This document shows positions 43,500 through 48,480 of a stretch of 52,709 bases of DNA, piece by piece. The stretch lies in NCBI GenBank assembly GCA_026392155.1, contig JAPLCP010000077.1:1-52709 (forward strand), given 5' to 3'. A program made the translations under genes and the position numbers. The stretch comes from Armatimonadota bacterium (GTDB lineage Bacteria; Armatimonadota; Armatimonadia; Armatimonadales; Armatimonadaceae). The notes below the pieces were generated by a model. It made no database searches. It worked only from the letters and a program-made list of their open reading frames with translations, and was not told the DNA's origin. Numbering within the stretch: position 1 is the first letter of the stretch; each line of letters begins with the position of its first letter.

Positions 43500-44282
43500 T
43501 CAGAGTTTTCGGGCTGCGCTCAGCTCATGGGTCGCAAGTGCGGCAACCTGGCTCACATCGCTGACGGGGGCACCGGCGCGGACGCGGATCGGCTTGCCAT
43601 CGCTGGTGATTCCTAAGGCAAAGAGATAGAGAAAACGATCACTGGAGAGAGCGCAGGCGGTAACAAGGGCTCCCGGATTGAGCCGTGCAAACTCCCGCTC
43701 ACAGATCAGCTCACGACGCGTCGGGAAGTGATCACAGGCGGCGTTGACATCCGCGCATCTCTCCAGATCGTCCTTGCGGCAGAGCACCACGGTTCCTCCC
43801 TGCCCTATCGCGGGCATAAAGAGCTCGGGGGCAAAGATCTCGGTCGCGGCCTCGGAAAGCCCTAGGCGGGAGAGATCGGCGTAGCCCACGATCACGGCAG
43901 CAACCTCGCCCCGATCCAGCGTAGAGAGCTGCTCTTCAAAGGTGCCGGAAAGCACGACGAGCTCCAGATCGGGCCGGAGGGTGGCAAGCTGTGCCTGACG
44001 AAGGGGCGTGCTTGCGCCCACCCGTGCTCCGATTGGCAGCTGCTCCAGCGTGCCGATTCCCGGGGCAACCAAGGCATCACGAATATCGCCACGCTCACAG
44101 AACGCGGCCGGTTCCAGGTCGGTGGGAAAGTCCTCGGCAGAGAGCGCGGCAGCGTCTGCCTCACCCGCACGCACGGCGGCGGCGGGATCGGGGCAGGCAA
44201 GCACCGTTGCCCCCCCCAGAAGCTCACCCACCCACGCGCCACGCCACGCCCCCAGATCATCGTTGTGTACGGCTATTGTCAT
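43500..44282 (-). CDS. Divergent hydroxymethylbilane synthase (HemC)-like protein
   Basis: The 260-residue protein follows the HemC order: AEDFPTDLEPAAFCERGDIRDALVA (compare HSxKDLPT and DPRDALVS), LPIGARVGASTPLRQAQLATLRPDLELVVLSGTFEEQLSTLDRGEVAAVIVGYADLSRLGL, FMPAIGQGGTVVLCRKDD and FPTRRELICEREFARLNPGALVTACAL. It is about 50 residues shorter than normal. Two hallmarks are changed: the SSLRRQ arginine pair is now STPLRQ, and the GGC cysteine that carries the dipyrromethane cofactor is absent (NPGALV). It therefore probably lacks normal porphobilinogen deaminase activity. ATG 44282 overlaps the upstream amidohydrolase stop (ATGA). Confidence 0.75.
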   Translation of the reverse strand: MTIAVHNDDLGAWRGAWVGELLGGATVLACPDPAAAVRAGEADAAALSAEDFPTDLEPAAFCERGDIRDALVAPGIGTLEQLPIGARVGASTPLRQAQLATLRPDLELVVLSGTFEEQLSTLDRGEVAAVIVGYADLSRLGLSEAATEIFAPELFMPAIGQGGTVVLCRKDDLERCADVNAACDHFPTRRELICEREFARLNPGALVTACALSSDRFLYLFALGITSDGKPIRVRAGAPVSDVSQVAALATHELSAARKL

Positions 44283-47200
44283 TTGGACTTAGGCCGTGAC
44301 CGCCAGCGCTCGTAGAGGCCGGACTGCTTGCTGGAAAGATTGACGGGCTTGCCTTCCACAAATGCCTGCCGAACTTGGGTCATCACCTCGAGAATATCGC
44401 CGTTGGTCACCACCAAGTTCGCGTCTTTTCCCGGCTCGATACTTCCTAGGCGACTACCCGCGCCGAGAATCTCCGCCGCGCCAAGCGTGATGGACTTCAG
44501 CGCCTCTTCCCGGCTGAGGCCAAAGGCCGCCGCCATTGCCGCGTGCTGTGCAAGATTGCGAACTTTCTGGGACTCTCCGCCACCTGTGATGGCAAACTTC
44601 ACCCCTGCTTTTGCCAGACGGGCGGGAAGCGTAAAGGAGTCATCATAAGGGGCATCTAGCTTGCGCGGCAGGGCAAGTGTCGGGCCGAGGAGCACGGGGA
44701 CATTTTCTTTGACGAGAAGCTCCGTGCACTCATCGGCCTGGTTTCCTCCCACAATCACCAGCGGGAAGCCTTCTTTCTTCGCCCAGCGCACCGCCGACTC
44801 GATCTCTTTCTTGCTGTTGGCGTTCACAAAGACAGGCACCTTGCCTTCGAGCACCGGGAACATGGCCTCGAACTTTAGGTCTCGCGGGGTCTTGGGGTTG
44901 GTGTTTCGTGCCTGGTGGTAGCGCCGCGCCTGCTCCAAGAAGTCGGCGACAGGCTGCAGCGAGTCACTGGCAATAGGAGTCGCACCCAGAGCCCCCTGAC
45001 CACGTCGGCCCACAAACGGCGGCTGGGCGGCACCCGCTCGGTTGAGGTCGTCCTCCTCGCCCATGTCTTCGCAGCTATCATCGTGATGGTGCTCCCCAAA
45101 GCGCCGTCCGCCGCCGCCGCCCGGCAACGTGGTAAAAAGGCCCGCGAGGGGGTCAAGCGACATTTCTTCCCATGTCCAGCCATCTAGGTTGATGAGCGCT
45201 CCCATCCCCGAGAATGTCCCGCCAGATGGTGCCACCAGCGCACTCAGAATCCCCTCAGCCCTTGTGACTTTGATCGCCTCGGAGTCTGGGTTAATGACGT
45301 GGGCTGCAAACAGCTCGGGCTTGTAGGTGCCTTGCTCGCTCAGATCCTGAGTCTCGCGACGGGAGTCGATCTCGTTGGCTCCAAGCGTGGTATTGGCATC
45401 AATCAGCCCCGGATAGACATGCTGCCCGGAGATGTCTACTCGCGTCGCGCCCGCAGGAACGCTCACCTCGCCCGCCTTGCCCACGGCGAGAATCTTTGAG
45501 CCTTGCACCACGACCACGCCACCGACAATATCTGCGCCGCTGACCGTGTGGACGGTGCCATTCACCAGAGCGGTAACGGGCCCCGTGGGTGTTGCCCCCC
45601 CTGCCCCCGCCGAGCGGAGGGGACGCTTAGGTAGGGCTTCGCCGGCGTTCTCTGGTTCCCCCGCCGGGCGGGGGCTAGGGGGTTGGCCGGAGCTTAGCTC
45701 TTTCACCAGCCGCGTTTTTTCGGCTTCTAGCTCCTTACGGGCGGCGAGATCTGCCGCGCGGTCGAAGAGGAGGTTGCCATCCACGAACGTCTTCTCCGGC
45801 ATGGAGAGCGGCGAGAGCGGGTTGCCTGTCCAGAGCACGATATCGGCATCTTTTCCGGGCTCCAGTGAGCCGGTAAGCTTGTCAATATGGAGCTGCTTGG
45901 CGGGATTAATGGTCACCATTTTTAGCGCCTCCGCAGGCGACATATTGCCCCAGCGGATGGCCTTGGCCGCCTCAACATTCATGCGCCGGGCCAGCTCGTT
46001 GTCATCGGAGTTAAACGACACCGTGACGCCACGCTCGGTCATGAGCGCCCCGTTCCAGGGAATCGCGTCTATGGCTTCGAGCTTGTAGCCCCACCAGTCG
46101 GTAAACGTCGAGCCACCCGCACCGTGCTTGGCGATCTCATCGGCGACTTTGTAGCCCTCTAAGACATGCTGGAACGTGGCGATCTTAAAGCCGAACTCAT
46201 CGGCAAGGCGGATCAGCATGAGAATCTCGCTGGCGACGTAGCTATGGCAGTGCACGAGGCGCTTGCCCTCTAGGATCTCGACCAGCGCATCTAACTGCAA
46301 GTCGCGACGGGTGCCCTCGGGGTTGGCCTTGCGCTTTACAGCATAGTCGCGTGCTTCCGTGAACCGGGCACGAATGATTCTTTCCACTCCCATGCGGCTC
46401 ACGGGGTAGCGTGGCGTGCCCTCACGAAAGCCGCCGCTGTTCGACCGCGTCGGGTTCTCGCCCAGCGCGAACTTGATGCCCTGTGGCGCGTCCTTGATCA
46501 GCAAGTCCTCGGCGGAGTCTGCGCCCCAGCGCCACTTCACTGCGGCATTCTGCCCGCCAATGGCATTGGCCGAGCCATGCAGCACATTGGCGGCGGTGGT
46601 GCCCCCCGCAAGCTGTCGGTAGATATTCACGTCATCCGGGTTGAGCACGTCGGCGATACGCACTTCGGCCGTGACGATATTGCTGCCCTCATTGACACCG
46701 CCCGAGACAGCGGAGTGCGAGTGGCAGTCAATCATCCCCGGCGTCACGTGCTTGCCACGCCCATCTATCTCGACCGTGCCACCAGGAACTTTTAAAGCGT
46801 TGCCAATCGCGGCGATCTTGCCGTCCCGCACCAAGACATCAGTCTCTTTGAGTATCCCCGCCGCCGCACTTGTCCACACCGTCGCGTTGCGCAAGACGAA
46901 GTTTTTGGAAGCCATCGCAGGCGGCAGCGGCGGTATCTGCCCGGTACCCACTTTGGAGAGCACAAAAGGCTTCTCCTCCCCCCCATCCCCCGCCCGGCGG
47001 GGGGGCTCTGCGGTTTGGGGTTTGCCTTCTAGATTTTCCCCCCGCGCGGCGGGGGATGGGGGGGCAGCAGCCAACGTGACAGGCTTGCCTTCGACAAAGA
47101 CCTGCACCAGCTTGGCCTTGGGTGCAAAGAGCGAGTCGCCCTCGACGGCGATCACGTTGGCGAGCTTGCCCTCTTCCAGTGTCCCTGCCTGCTTCTCAAT

Positions 47201-48283
47201 GCCCAGCAGCTTCGCGGGTGAGAGTGTCAGCGCCATGAGTGCCTGGTCTTGGGTGAGGCCAGCCGCGATGAGCTTGCGGGTGTTTTTGAGGAGATCCGCA
47301 GGCGAGCTGGTCGTCAGCGCAAACGGGACACCGACTTTTGCCAATGCAGCCGCAGTCGTCGGAGCCAGGGCGCGAGCACGCAGGCTCTGGAGGGTTTCCG
47401 TAGACATCTCACCCGGCGCGACTGTCGGGGCAGCGGGCAGGTCGGCGGAAAGAAAAACACTGACTTTAGCGTCCTTGAGCTTCTGCGCAATGGCATAGGC
47501 TTCGGTGCCACCCTCGATAATCGGGGTCAGGCCAAACTCTTTACACAGCTTGAGGGCTCGCTCGATCTCCCGTGCACCGCTAGCTCGCACGATCAGCGGG
47601 AGCTTTTTCTCCACCACGGGCTGGAGCGCCTGAATGGTGCGTGTGGGAGTGCCCTTGCCGCCCTTGAACCGGGCATCGTAGAGGGCCTGGCGGGTCGCGG
47701 CGATCTGGCCCATGAGCGAGCCGGGGTACTCACCAAAGCCGCCGCGCTCAAACGAGAGGTGCATCCCAATCCTTGGATTCAGCAGCAGCTCATTGACTTT
47801 CTCAGACTCGCCCAGGCTAATTGCCGCACTGGTTCCCGCAAGAAGGCCCGTCGCGGGTGCCGTGAGCGCGATCCCAAACCCCGCCTGGCGGTAGGGCTTG
47901 TTTGCCTCCGCATCGGGCTTGAAGAGCAGCGCGGCATTGTTCTCCGACTGGATCGCCGACACGGGGTACTTATCGCCACGATCCGATTTGACGACTTCGG
48001 TGGGCATCCCGAGCCGCGTGGATGCGTTGATCAGCCCCGGATAGAGTGTCCAGCCCTTCCCCGAGATCACCTTGGCATCCTTGGGAACGGTGACATTGGC
48101 CCCAACCGACTCAATCACGCCATCGCGCAAGACCAGTGTCCCCGACGCGATCACTTTCCCTGGCGCCGTGACGATCTTCGCGCCCGTGATGGCATAGACA
48201 TTCGGAGCCCCTGGATCGTTGCCCTGCGCGTGTGCAACCGTGGCAAGCCCGAGACTGAGAAAAAGAGCGGCAGATTTTCGCAT
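44279..48283 (-). CDS. Secreted triple amidohydrolase (three fused imidazolonepropionase-like domains)
   Basis: ATG 48283 opens a signal peptide (MRKSAALFLSLGLATVAHAQG); a GGAGGAGGG ribosome site lies 9 nt upstream. The frame extends to 48391 but that part is palindromic repeat. The 1334-residue protein has three amidohydrolase domains. Domain 1 (about 25-405) and domain 3 (about 900-1334) have lost the HxH metal pair (YPGLINAST, YPGLIDANT). Domain 2 (about 436-865) keeps it (PGMIDCHSHSAV), with HCHSY, FQHVLEGYK and SFNSDDNE. Only the middle domain should be catalytic. Proline- and glycine-rich linkers at about 407-435 and 868-896 are encoded by 87-bp palindromic elements. Substrate unknown; a periplasmic peptide or amide hydrolase is likely. 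Confidence 0.85.
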   Translation of the reverse strand: MRKSAALFLSLGLATVAHAQGNDPGAPNVYAITGAKIVTAPGKVIASGTLVLRDGVIESVGANVTVPKDAKVISGKGWTLYPGLINASTRLGMPTEVVKSDRGDKYPVSAIQSENNAALLFKPDAEANKPYRQAGFGIALTAPATGLLAGTSAAISLGESEKVNELLLNPRIGMHLSFERGGFGEYPGSLMGQIAATRQALYDARFKGGKGTPTRTIQALQPVVEKKLPLIVRASGAREIERALKLCKEFGLTPIIEGGTEAYAIAQKLKDAKVSVFLSADLPAAPTVAPGEMSTETLQSLRARALAPTTAAALAKVGVPFALTTSSPADLLKNTRKLIAAGLTQDQALMALTLSPAKLLGIEKQAGTLEEGKLANVIAVEGDSLFAPKAKLVQVFVEGKPVTLAAAPPSPAARGENLEGKPQTAEPPRRAGDGGEEKPFVLSKVGTGQIPPLPPAMASKNFVLRNATVWTSAAAGILKETDVLVRDGKIAAIGNALKVPGGTVEIDGRGKHVTPGMIDCHSHSAVSGGVNEGSNIVTAEVRIADVLNPDDVNIYRQLAGGTTAANVLHGSANAIGGQNAAVKWRWGADSAEDLLIKDAPQGIKFALGENPTRSNSGGFREGTPRYPVSRMGVERIIRARFTEARDYAVKRKANPEGTRRDLQLDALVEILEGKRLVHCHSYVASEILMLIRLADEFGFKIATFQHVLEGYKVADEIAKHGAGGSTFTDWWGYKLEAIDAIPWNGALMTERGVTVSFNSDDNELARRMNVEAAKAIRWGNMSPAEALKMVTINPAKQLHIDKLTGSLEPGKDADIVLWTGNPLSPLSMPEKTFVDGNLLFDRAADLAARKELEAEKTRLVKELSSGQPPSPRPAGEPENAGEALPKRPLRSAGAGGATPTGPVTALVNGTVHTVSGADIVGGVVVVQGSKILAVGKAGEVSVPAGATRVDISGQHVYPGLIDANTTLGANEIDSRRETQDLSEQGTYKPELFAAHVINPDSEAIKVTRAEGILSALVAPSGGTFSGMGALINLDGWTWEEMSLDPLAGLFTTLPGGGGGRRFGEHHHDDSCEDMGEEDDLNRAGAAQPPFVGRRGQGALGATPIASDSLQPVADFLEQARRYHQARNTNPKTPRDLKFEAMFPVLEGKVPVFVNANSKKEIESAVRWAKKEGFPLVIVGGNQADECTELLVKENVPVLLGPTLALPRKLDAPYDDSFTLPARLAKAGVKFAITGGGESQKVRNLAQHAAMAAAFGLSREEALKSITLGAAEILGAGSRLGSIEPGKDANLVVTNGDILEVMTQVRQAFVEGKPVNLSSKQSGLYERWRSRPKSK
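45596..45682. repeat. In-frame 87-bp palindromic element, copy 2, inside the amidohydrolase gene
   Basis: The ends read CCCCCCTGCCCCCGCC (45596-45611) and GGCGGGGGCTAGGGGG (45667-45682), an imperfect inverted repeat. It is exactly 29 codons and encodes the linker PPSPRPAGEPENAGEALPKR and onward. Length, orientation, ends and translation match copy 1. Confidence 0.75.
46978..47064. repeat. In-frame 87-bp palindromic element, copy 1, inside the amidohydrolase gene
   Basis: Perfect 16-bp inverted ends CCCCCCCATCCCCCGC (46978-46993) and GCGGGGGATGGGGGGG (47049-47064). Exactly 29 codons long; encodes PPSPAARGENLEGKPQTAEP and onward between domains 1 and 2. Confidence 0.85.
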
Positions 48284-48292
48284 GATGAGTTC

Positions 48293-48480
48293 CCTCCTCC
48301 CCCAACCCCTCCTCCCAATCCTGGGAGGCAGGATCGGCGGAGGGGGGAGGAATAAAAATGAGGCCGGCGGTTCATCCGCCAGCCCCGGCATTTCTGCCCA
48401 ACATTCTACCCAATCCCATAGTCATTTTGGTCTCCACCTCCCCTCCTCCCAGGATTGGGAGGAGGGGTTGGGGGAGGAGG
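48293..48480. repeat. 188-bp palindromic element with 36-bp perfect inverted ends
   Basis: The 36-bp arm at 48293-48328 is the exact reverse complement of 48445-48480. Each arm also contains its own hairpin (CCTCCCA-ATCC-TGGGAGG). A small GGCGG-TTCAT-CCGCC hairpin (48366-48380) lies inside. Shape and end sequence suggest a MITE-like mobile palindrome. Its left arm supplies the ribosome site of the amidohydrolase gene. Confidence 0.85.

Follow-up and report, generated by a model that had tools for sequence, protein, structure and literature searches.

The window (the whole stretch of 52,709 nucleotides analysed here, from an Armatimonadota bacterium) contains a gene for a triple amidohydrolase, and at each of the two junctions between its units lies a palindrome that is read through as part of the protein. 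The question raised by this locus is whether the palindromes are products of the host gene or mobile sequences that have come to rest within it and, if the latter, by what means such sequences are disseminated. A sequence-only reading had taken them for two copies of one mobile element, comparable to rickettsial palindromic elements (RPEs), that form the linkers of the protein.

The basic geometry is as that reading described: two 87-bp palindromes, 29 codons each, lie in one minus-strand open frame, and Pfam places them between units 1 and 2 (46978-47064) and units 2 and 3 (45596-45682), with PF01979 and PF07969 each matching three stretches (Table 1). The closest named relative by amidohydrolase is an uncultured Armatimonadetes bacterium. 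Perfect inverted ends of 16 bp had been ascribed to 45596-45682, but it is 46978-47064 that has perfect ends; those of 45596-45682 show five perfect bases and 14 matches in 16. Every arm is itself a small hairpin (CCCCCGC..GCGGGGG), which gives each element the layout of a REP doublet, and the predicted RNA folds of the palindromes fall some 4 to 8 SD below those of shuffles. The arms of the two palindromes are alike and the spacers are not (spacer alignment score 2.0), so that equal length is no proof of one identical unit: the kinship that had been proposed holds for the arms and fails for the spacers. Scored with an arm HMM, the arms reach 8 and 22 bits at 45596-45682, and 23 and 30 bits at 46978-47064 (reversed genome: no match at E<1). 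Both palindromes are diverged, aged copies of a genus-restricted inverted-repeat family to which we give the name C5.

Table 1. Features of the amidohydrolase locus (positions in the window)
Feature	Position	Strand	Remark
Triple amidohydrolase gene, both palindromes in frame	44279..48286	-	ORF, 1,335 aa from ATG at 48286
C5-family palindromic element, domain 1-2 linker, encodes APPSPAARGENLEGKPQTAEPPRRAGDGGE	46978..47064	.	17-bp perfect inverted ends
Left arm, CAT-type head CCCCCCCATCCCCCGCCCGGCGGGGGG, inner GCTCTGCGGTTT	46978..47004	+	
Right arm, CAT-type head, inner AAAATCTAGAA	47038..47064	-	
Older, more degraded C5-family element, domain 2-3 linker, encodes QPPSPRPAGEPENAGEALPKRPLRSAGAGGA	45596..45682	.	
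Left arm CCCCCCTGCCCCCGCCGAGCGGAGG	45596..45620	+	
Right arm, TAG-type head CCCCCTAGCCCCCGCCCGGCGGGGG on minus strand	45658..45682	-	
Palindromic repeat of a second family, intergenic, shortly upstream of amidohydrolase start	48294..48351	.	
Another copy of second palindromic family (CCTCCCCTCCTCCCAGGATTGGGAGGAGGGGTTGGGGGAGG), intergenic	48436..48479	.	

The genome of the window (G000, 4.77 Mb, in which the window is contig C43) contains 104 occurrences of the arm core CCCCCGC(N0-6)GCGGGGG, against one of the reversed pattern. The arm HMM recovers 90 arms in 1.47 Mb and none in reversed sequence; pairing of the arms yields 29 elements, which measure 68-93 bp and for the most part 76-81 bp. The unit thus defined comprises two inverted 38-bp arms, each made up of a C-run head, a mini-hairpin and a short subterminal motif. 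Among 56 aligned arm seeds the heads are CCCCCCTAA, TAG or CAT, and the consensus reads CCCCCCTAACCCCCGCCnGGCGGGGGGACAATAAGGAA...(inverted), alongside a CAT-headed variant. The head CCCCCCTAACCCCCGC occurs 42 times in G000 and 31 times in G001 – the only other species of the genus available for comparison – and is absent from the 59 other Armatimonadota genomes searched: within this set C5 is a multicopy family found only in the two genomes of the genus. No exact target-site duplications of 3-8 bp were found in 29 copies from G000 or 20 from the closed genome G014 (see below), the exact C5 junctions being blurred by flank divergence.

A substantial part of the family lies within genes. Sixteen of 61 elements sampled in 1.47 Mb occur in an open frame with coding sequence on both sides; the sample consists of stretches picked on contigs with C5 matches, which biases element density upward but should not affect the in-gene fraction. 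In-gene calls are based on open frames plus homology (a codon-score test tells frames apart weakly in single 40-codon windows), and a frame-shifted case on contig C27 is left out of the count. The expectation that the two palindromes would have relatives elsewhere in the genome, some of them in frame, is thus borne out. The hosts, named by sequence recognition rather than database assignment, include pheT (phenylalanyl-tRNA synthetase beta chain), polA (DNA polymerase I), PutA (proline dehydrogenase/P5C dehydrogenase), an E2 acyltransferase, an NRPS adenylation domain with the element just ahead of the TSGTTG motif, a hydantoinase, an alpha-amylase, a cytochrome-c/WD40 protein and a DUF1501 protein, in addition to the two amidohydrolase linkers. 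In-frame copies are found mostly at linkers and loops, and typical encoded peptides are SPLTPARRGDNKE and NPPRRAGDGGE.

Comparison with G001 reveals both persistence and turnover. The PheT and DUF1501 elements are also present there, and at five junctions (PolA, PutA, NRPS, cytochrome-c/WD40 and C69:8046) G001 has a different palindromic sequence at the same place, indicating that these loops are recurrent tolerant sites at which palindromic families turn over – a process that the sister species allows to be followed. Among 15 further, mostly intergenic elements a few are common to both genomes and at least six are empty in G001 (C213:22091, C195:40793, C64:9564, C87:23782, C60:11139 and C215:39878). 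Our data thus show that C5 is mobile on the time scale of the genus, and the in-frame fraction adds a second bacterial lineage, this one free-living, to the record of protein linkers built from mobile palindromes.

At the amidohydrolase itself, the G001 orthologue (approximately 80% identical) has no palindrome in either linker. Linkers are nonetheless present at both positions in all orthologues, and in relatives they are hypervariable and proline-rich, which indicates that the C5 elements entered or replaced tolerant linker sequence and did not create the linkers: the palindromes sit in the linkers, as had been supposed, but are not what made them. We found neither the same linkers in every orthologue nor a pair of palindromes without counterparts elsewhere in the genome. 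The G001 domain 2-3 linker bears a degraded resemblance to the copy in G000; its domain 1-2 linker, of some 75 codons, contains LPPGVT and LEGKP motifs common to other genera of the family. The spacer peptide LEGKPQTAEP of 46978-47064 can be aligned with the host linker of G001 (LEGKPAQAPAAP), equally far from domain 2, and some of this spacer may therefore be host sequence caught between half-elements. From this alignment, the 46978-47064 element may comprise two half-elements around a host remnant, having replaced approximately 45 linker codons; tests of its inner flanks lend more support to element ancestry on both sides (background fractions 0.003 and 0.015-0.026).

A lead to the means of dissemination comes from two long members of the family, which hold a gene between the inverted arms (C69:5834-6244 in G000, 411 bp; C2:614516-615006 in G001, 491 bp). 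In each case the gene belongs to DUF559 (PF04480; 8.5e-22 and 3.4e-32), a family of Vsr-like PD-(D/E)XK nucleases with a conserved DFYC...EVDGG.H motif and a solved homologue, PDB 3hrl, deposited as 'Endonuclease-Like Protein'. Both elements stand at the same position in G000 and G001, but their genes face opposite ways. The G000 copy is without the N-terminal part of the domain, and a present-day mobiliser would therefore have to be another copy or be extinct. The DUF559 element is the probable parent of the C5 palindromes; the earlier reading overlooked this likely source, which has the same arms.

The association between DUF559 and inverted repeats extends well beyond the genus. A flank test covering 450 bp upstream and 400 bp downstream (inverted repeats of at least 37 bits) was applied to 78 DUF559 loci that represent at least five phyla, and 38 of them had long inverted repeats on both sides of the gene; at about half of the loci the same test detected no two-sided repeat. 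Armatimonadota contributed 26 positives among 45 loci; of 19 loci from genomes of other phyla four were positive, all of them planctomycete, and of 14 from named records eight (Deinococcus 3/3, Sinorhizobium, Azospirillum, Sphingomonas, Pseudanabaena). These tallies leave out duplicate loci and loci without a tblastn hit, and include contig-truncated ones. Among 1,190 random positions a single one was positive – it proved to be the C69 DUF559 element itself – and none of 279 small coding ORFs had two-sided inverted repeats.

A search of nine genomes with the arms of seven DUF559 elements returned hundreds of matches, many of them inverted pairs; no arm family matched a genome other than those in which its DUF559 element is present. 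Multicopy solo palindromes with the arms of the local DUF559 element occur in at least seven Armatimonadota lineages, and the arm sequences are unrelated between lineages. In G014 paired matches define at least 26 uniform elements of approximately 150 bp; in the 20 copies retrieved the 52-bp arms are those of the 703-bp DUF559 element of that genome, and the subterminal motifs are similar to its own. Internally deleted derivatives would be expected to stand in just this relation to a gene-bearing element. Three of the solo copies (L422, L423 and L428) lie at the centre of an outer palindrome, the left flank resembling the reverse complement of the right. Such nesting exceeded the 95th percentile of shuffled partners in 4 of the 20 copies, a hint that palindromes may be preferred targets in this genome.

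Several DUF559 loci outside Armatimonadota have surroundings of their own. The Pseudanabaena and Picosynechococcus genes lie among CCCCTAAATCCCC-type hairpin repeats (in Pseudanabaena with an inverted repeat of 91 bp) and the Synechocystis gene has CCCCTCTCC-type hairpins on both sides (L385-L387). In Neisseria gonorrhoeae the gene homologous to PDB 3hrl (L384) is flanked on both sides by 114-bp direct repeats, 89% identical, that hold a CCCTCTCCC hairpin. In three Deinococcus species (L379, L380, L390) DUF559 elements lie antisense at different spots of the hydroxyphenylacetate (hpa) cluster.

We consider it likely that the palindromes of the window are aged copies of a mobile repeat, whose solo forms arose by deletion from DUF559 elements and were moved in trans by the nuclease. 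Solo palindromes would be internally deleted, non-autonomous derivatives; the Vsr-like nuclease would nick or cleave the arms, or hairpins at the target, in trans; and repair or strand transfer could then copy the short palindrome into a new site with no target duplication. Insertions within genes would survive only where length and frame give an open reading, as in PLTPARRGDNKE...NPPRRAGDGGE, and where the site is a tolerant linker such as those between the amidohydrolase domains. That DUF559 mobilises C5 repeats we infer from arm sequence and gene content; to our knowledge palindromic repeats outside the RAYT-linked REP families, RPEs included, have no identified mobiliser, and DUF559 is the first good candidate for such a role.

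Three other explanations deserve consideration. One would have the palindromes immobile, as GC-rich stretches of host linker that templated (quasipalindrome) repair turned into palindromes, an idea to which the hypervariable, proline-rich linkers of all relatives and the degraded resemblance in the G001 domain 2-3 linker lend some colour. Such repair, however, can yield neither more than 100 copies with a common 38-nt consensus at unrelated sites nor empty orthologous sites; we reject a host origin on genomic copy number and regard it as barely credible. More serious is the possibility that DUF559 is a parasite rather than the mobiliser: a homing-endonuclease-like invader that cuts palindromes spread by other means and inserts itself in their centres. 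The position of the gene between two arms, the nesting of some G014 elements within outer palindromes, and a Vsr-like fold suited to a nicking or cleaving enzyme would all follow, but lineage-specific targeting must then be assumed each time for the match between gene and own arms in at least seven lineages, and no other candidate mobiliser was found. We judge the invader unlikely.

The remaining alternative is that the palindromes are REP doublets (REPINs) moved by a RAYT (Y1_Tnp) of this genome, with DUF559 as unrelated cargo. The layout of C5 is REP-doublet-like, the genome encodes three Y1_Tnp genes, and REP dimers inside ORFs have been described in several genera (PMC3733652), so that RPEs are not the only precedent for palindromes in frame. 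Yet each of the three genes (L016, L017, L018) has its own inverted repeats of 57-140 bp, and C5 arms are absent within 1.5 kb of all three; as a mobiliser of C5 the RAYT was accordingly set aside. The heads of C5 read CCCCCCTAA or CCCCCCCAT instead of GTAG or CGTC, and the match between arm and gene is with DUF559, in several lineages. This explanation is in our view very unlikely. A separate palindrome family, GTAGCCCGGCACGGGC, does have a GTAG tag and adjoins a C5 arm at C118:3505.

Compared with known systems, the parallels between C5 and REP/REPIN are nevertheless extensive: inverted pairs of short hairpin units that number from tens to hundreds and lie mostly between genes but in part in frame within them, no target duplication seen, and gene-flanking copies thought to be the autonomous form. 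What sets C5 apart is that it has neither of the tags found at the foot of REP palindromes, no matching Y1 tyrosine transposase gene, and a probable DUF559 parent. RPEs resemble C5 as palindromes of approximately 100 bp or less that lie in frame in genes, housekeeping genes included, and leave the frame intact; they differ in phylum and base composition, which makes sequence homology to an RPE family improbable. The proposed comparison with RPEs thus holds in kind, in that C5 is multicopy, in good part in frame within genes, and absent from the G001 amidohydrolase. We know of no parent gene for RPEs, whereas C5 has a candidate with matching ends. MITEs are likewise short, with terminal inverted repeats, and are non-autonomous kin of longer gene-bearing elements, but they show target-site duplication and depend on a DDE transposase; for C5 no consistent duplication was found and the gene of the longer element is nuclease-like. 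The gene between the C5 arms belongs to one protein family with DUF559 and Vsr-like endonucleases such as E. coli YcjD, N. gonorrhoeae 3hrl and Caulobacter VsrA (PMC12907096). These have been treated as solitary nucleases of repair or restriction type, and in the open-access literature we found no paper linking DUF559 to palindromic repeats. In-frame palindromes being already known, it is the probable DUF559 parent that is new.

A broader proposal is that DUF559 genes with hairpin-bearing inverted repeats constitute a widespread, unrecognised class of mobile element, making lineage-specific palindromes independently of RAYT and DDE transposases; that the class takes in C5, the cyanobacterial CCCCTAAATCCCC-type, the alphaproteobacterial CCCTCACCCT-type and possibly the repeat beside E. 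coli ycjD; and that its copies repeatedly add or replace protein loops and linkers. Taking these statements jointly, we lean slightly towards accepting them. PF04480 genes, set in each lineage between arms of that lineage's own repeats, provide a concrete, testable candidate mobiliser and, if DUF559 is shown to mobilise C5 repeats, the class would be new.

The DUF559 gene of E. coli, ycjD, is adjoined by CCCTCACCCCAACCCTCTCCC / CCCCTCGCCCCTCTGGGGAGAGGGTTAGGGTGAGGGG repeats (L391, NZ_CP141089.1, 3' of ycjD; L396, MFDpir). One of these, which we take to resemble the 'Box C' repeat, is present in a median of 17 copies per E. coli genome, and the pairing of gene and multicopy repeat makes the mobiliser question open to work in laboratory strains. 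A clean empty site was sought in genomes without ycjD and discarded; there, sapF and fabI are separated by an RND efflux operon, and the polymorphism therefore cannot be read as a simple insertion.

Two smaller observations concern the neighbourhood of start codons in G000. The element at C83:6095-6172 has ends GGGGGGAAGTTATG that put a G-run 5-6 nt ahead of a start codon, and may therefore supply a Shine-Dalgarno-like sequence. Upstream of the amidohydrolase, the core of the nearer copy of the second palindromic family (CCAATCCTGGGAGG) recurs in the inverted repeat that accompanies the contig C109 DUF559 gene (L331).
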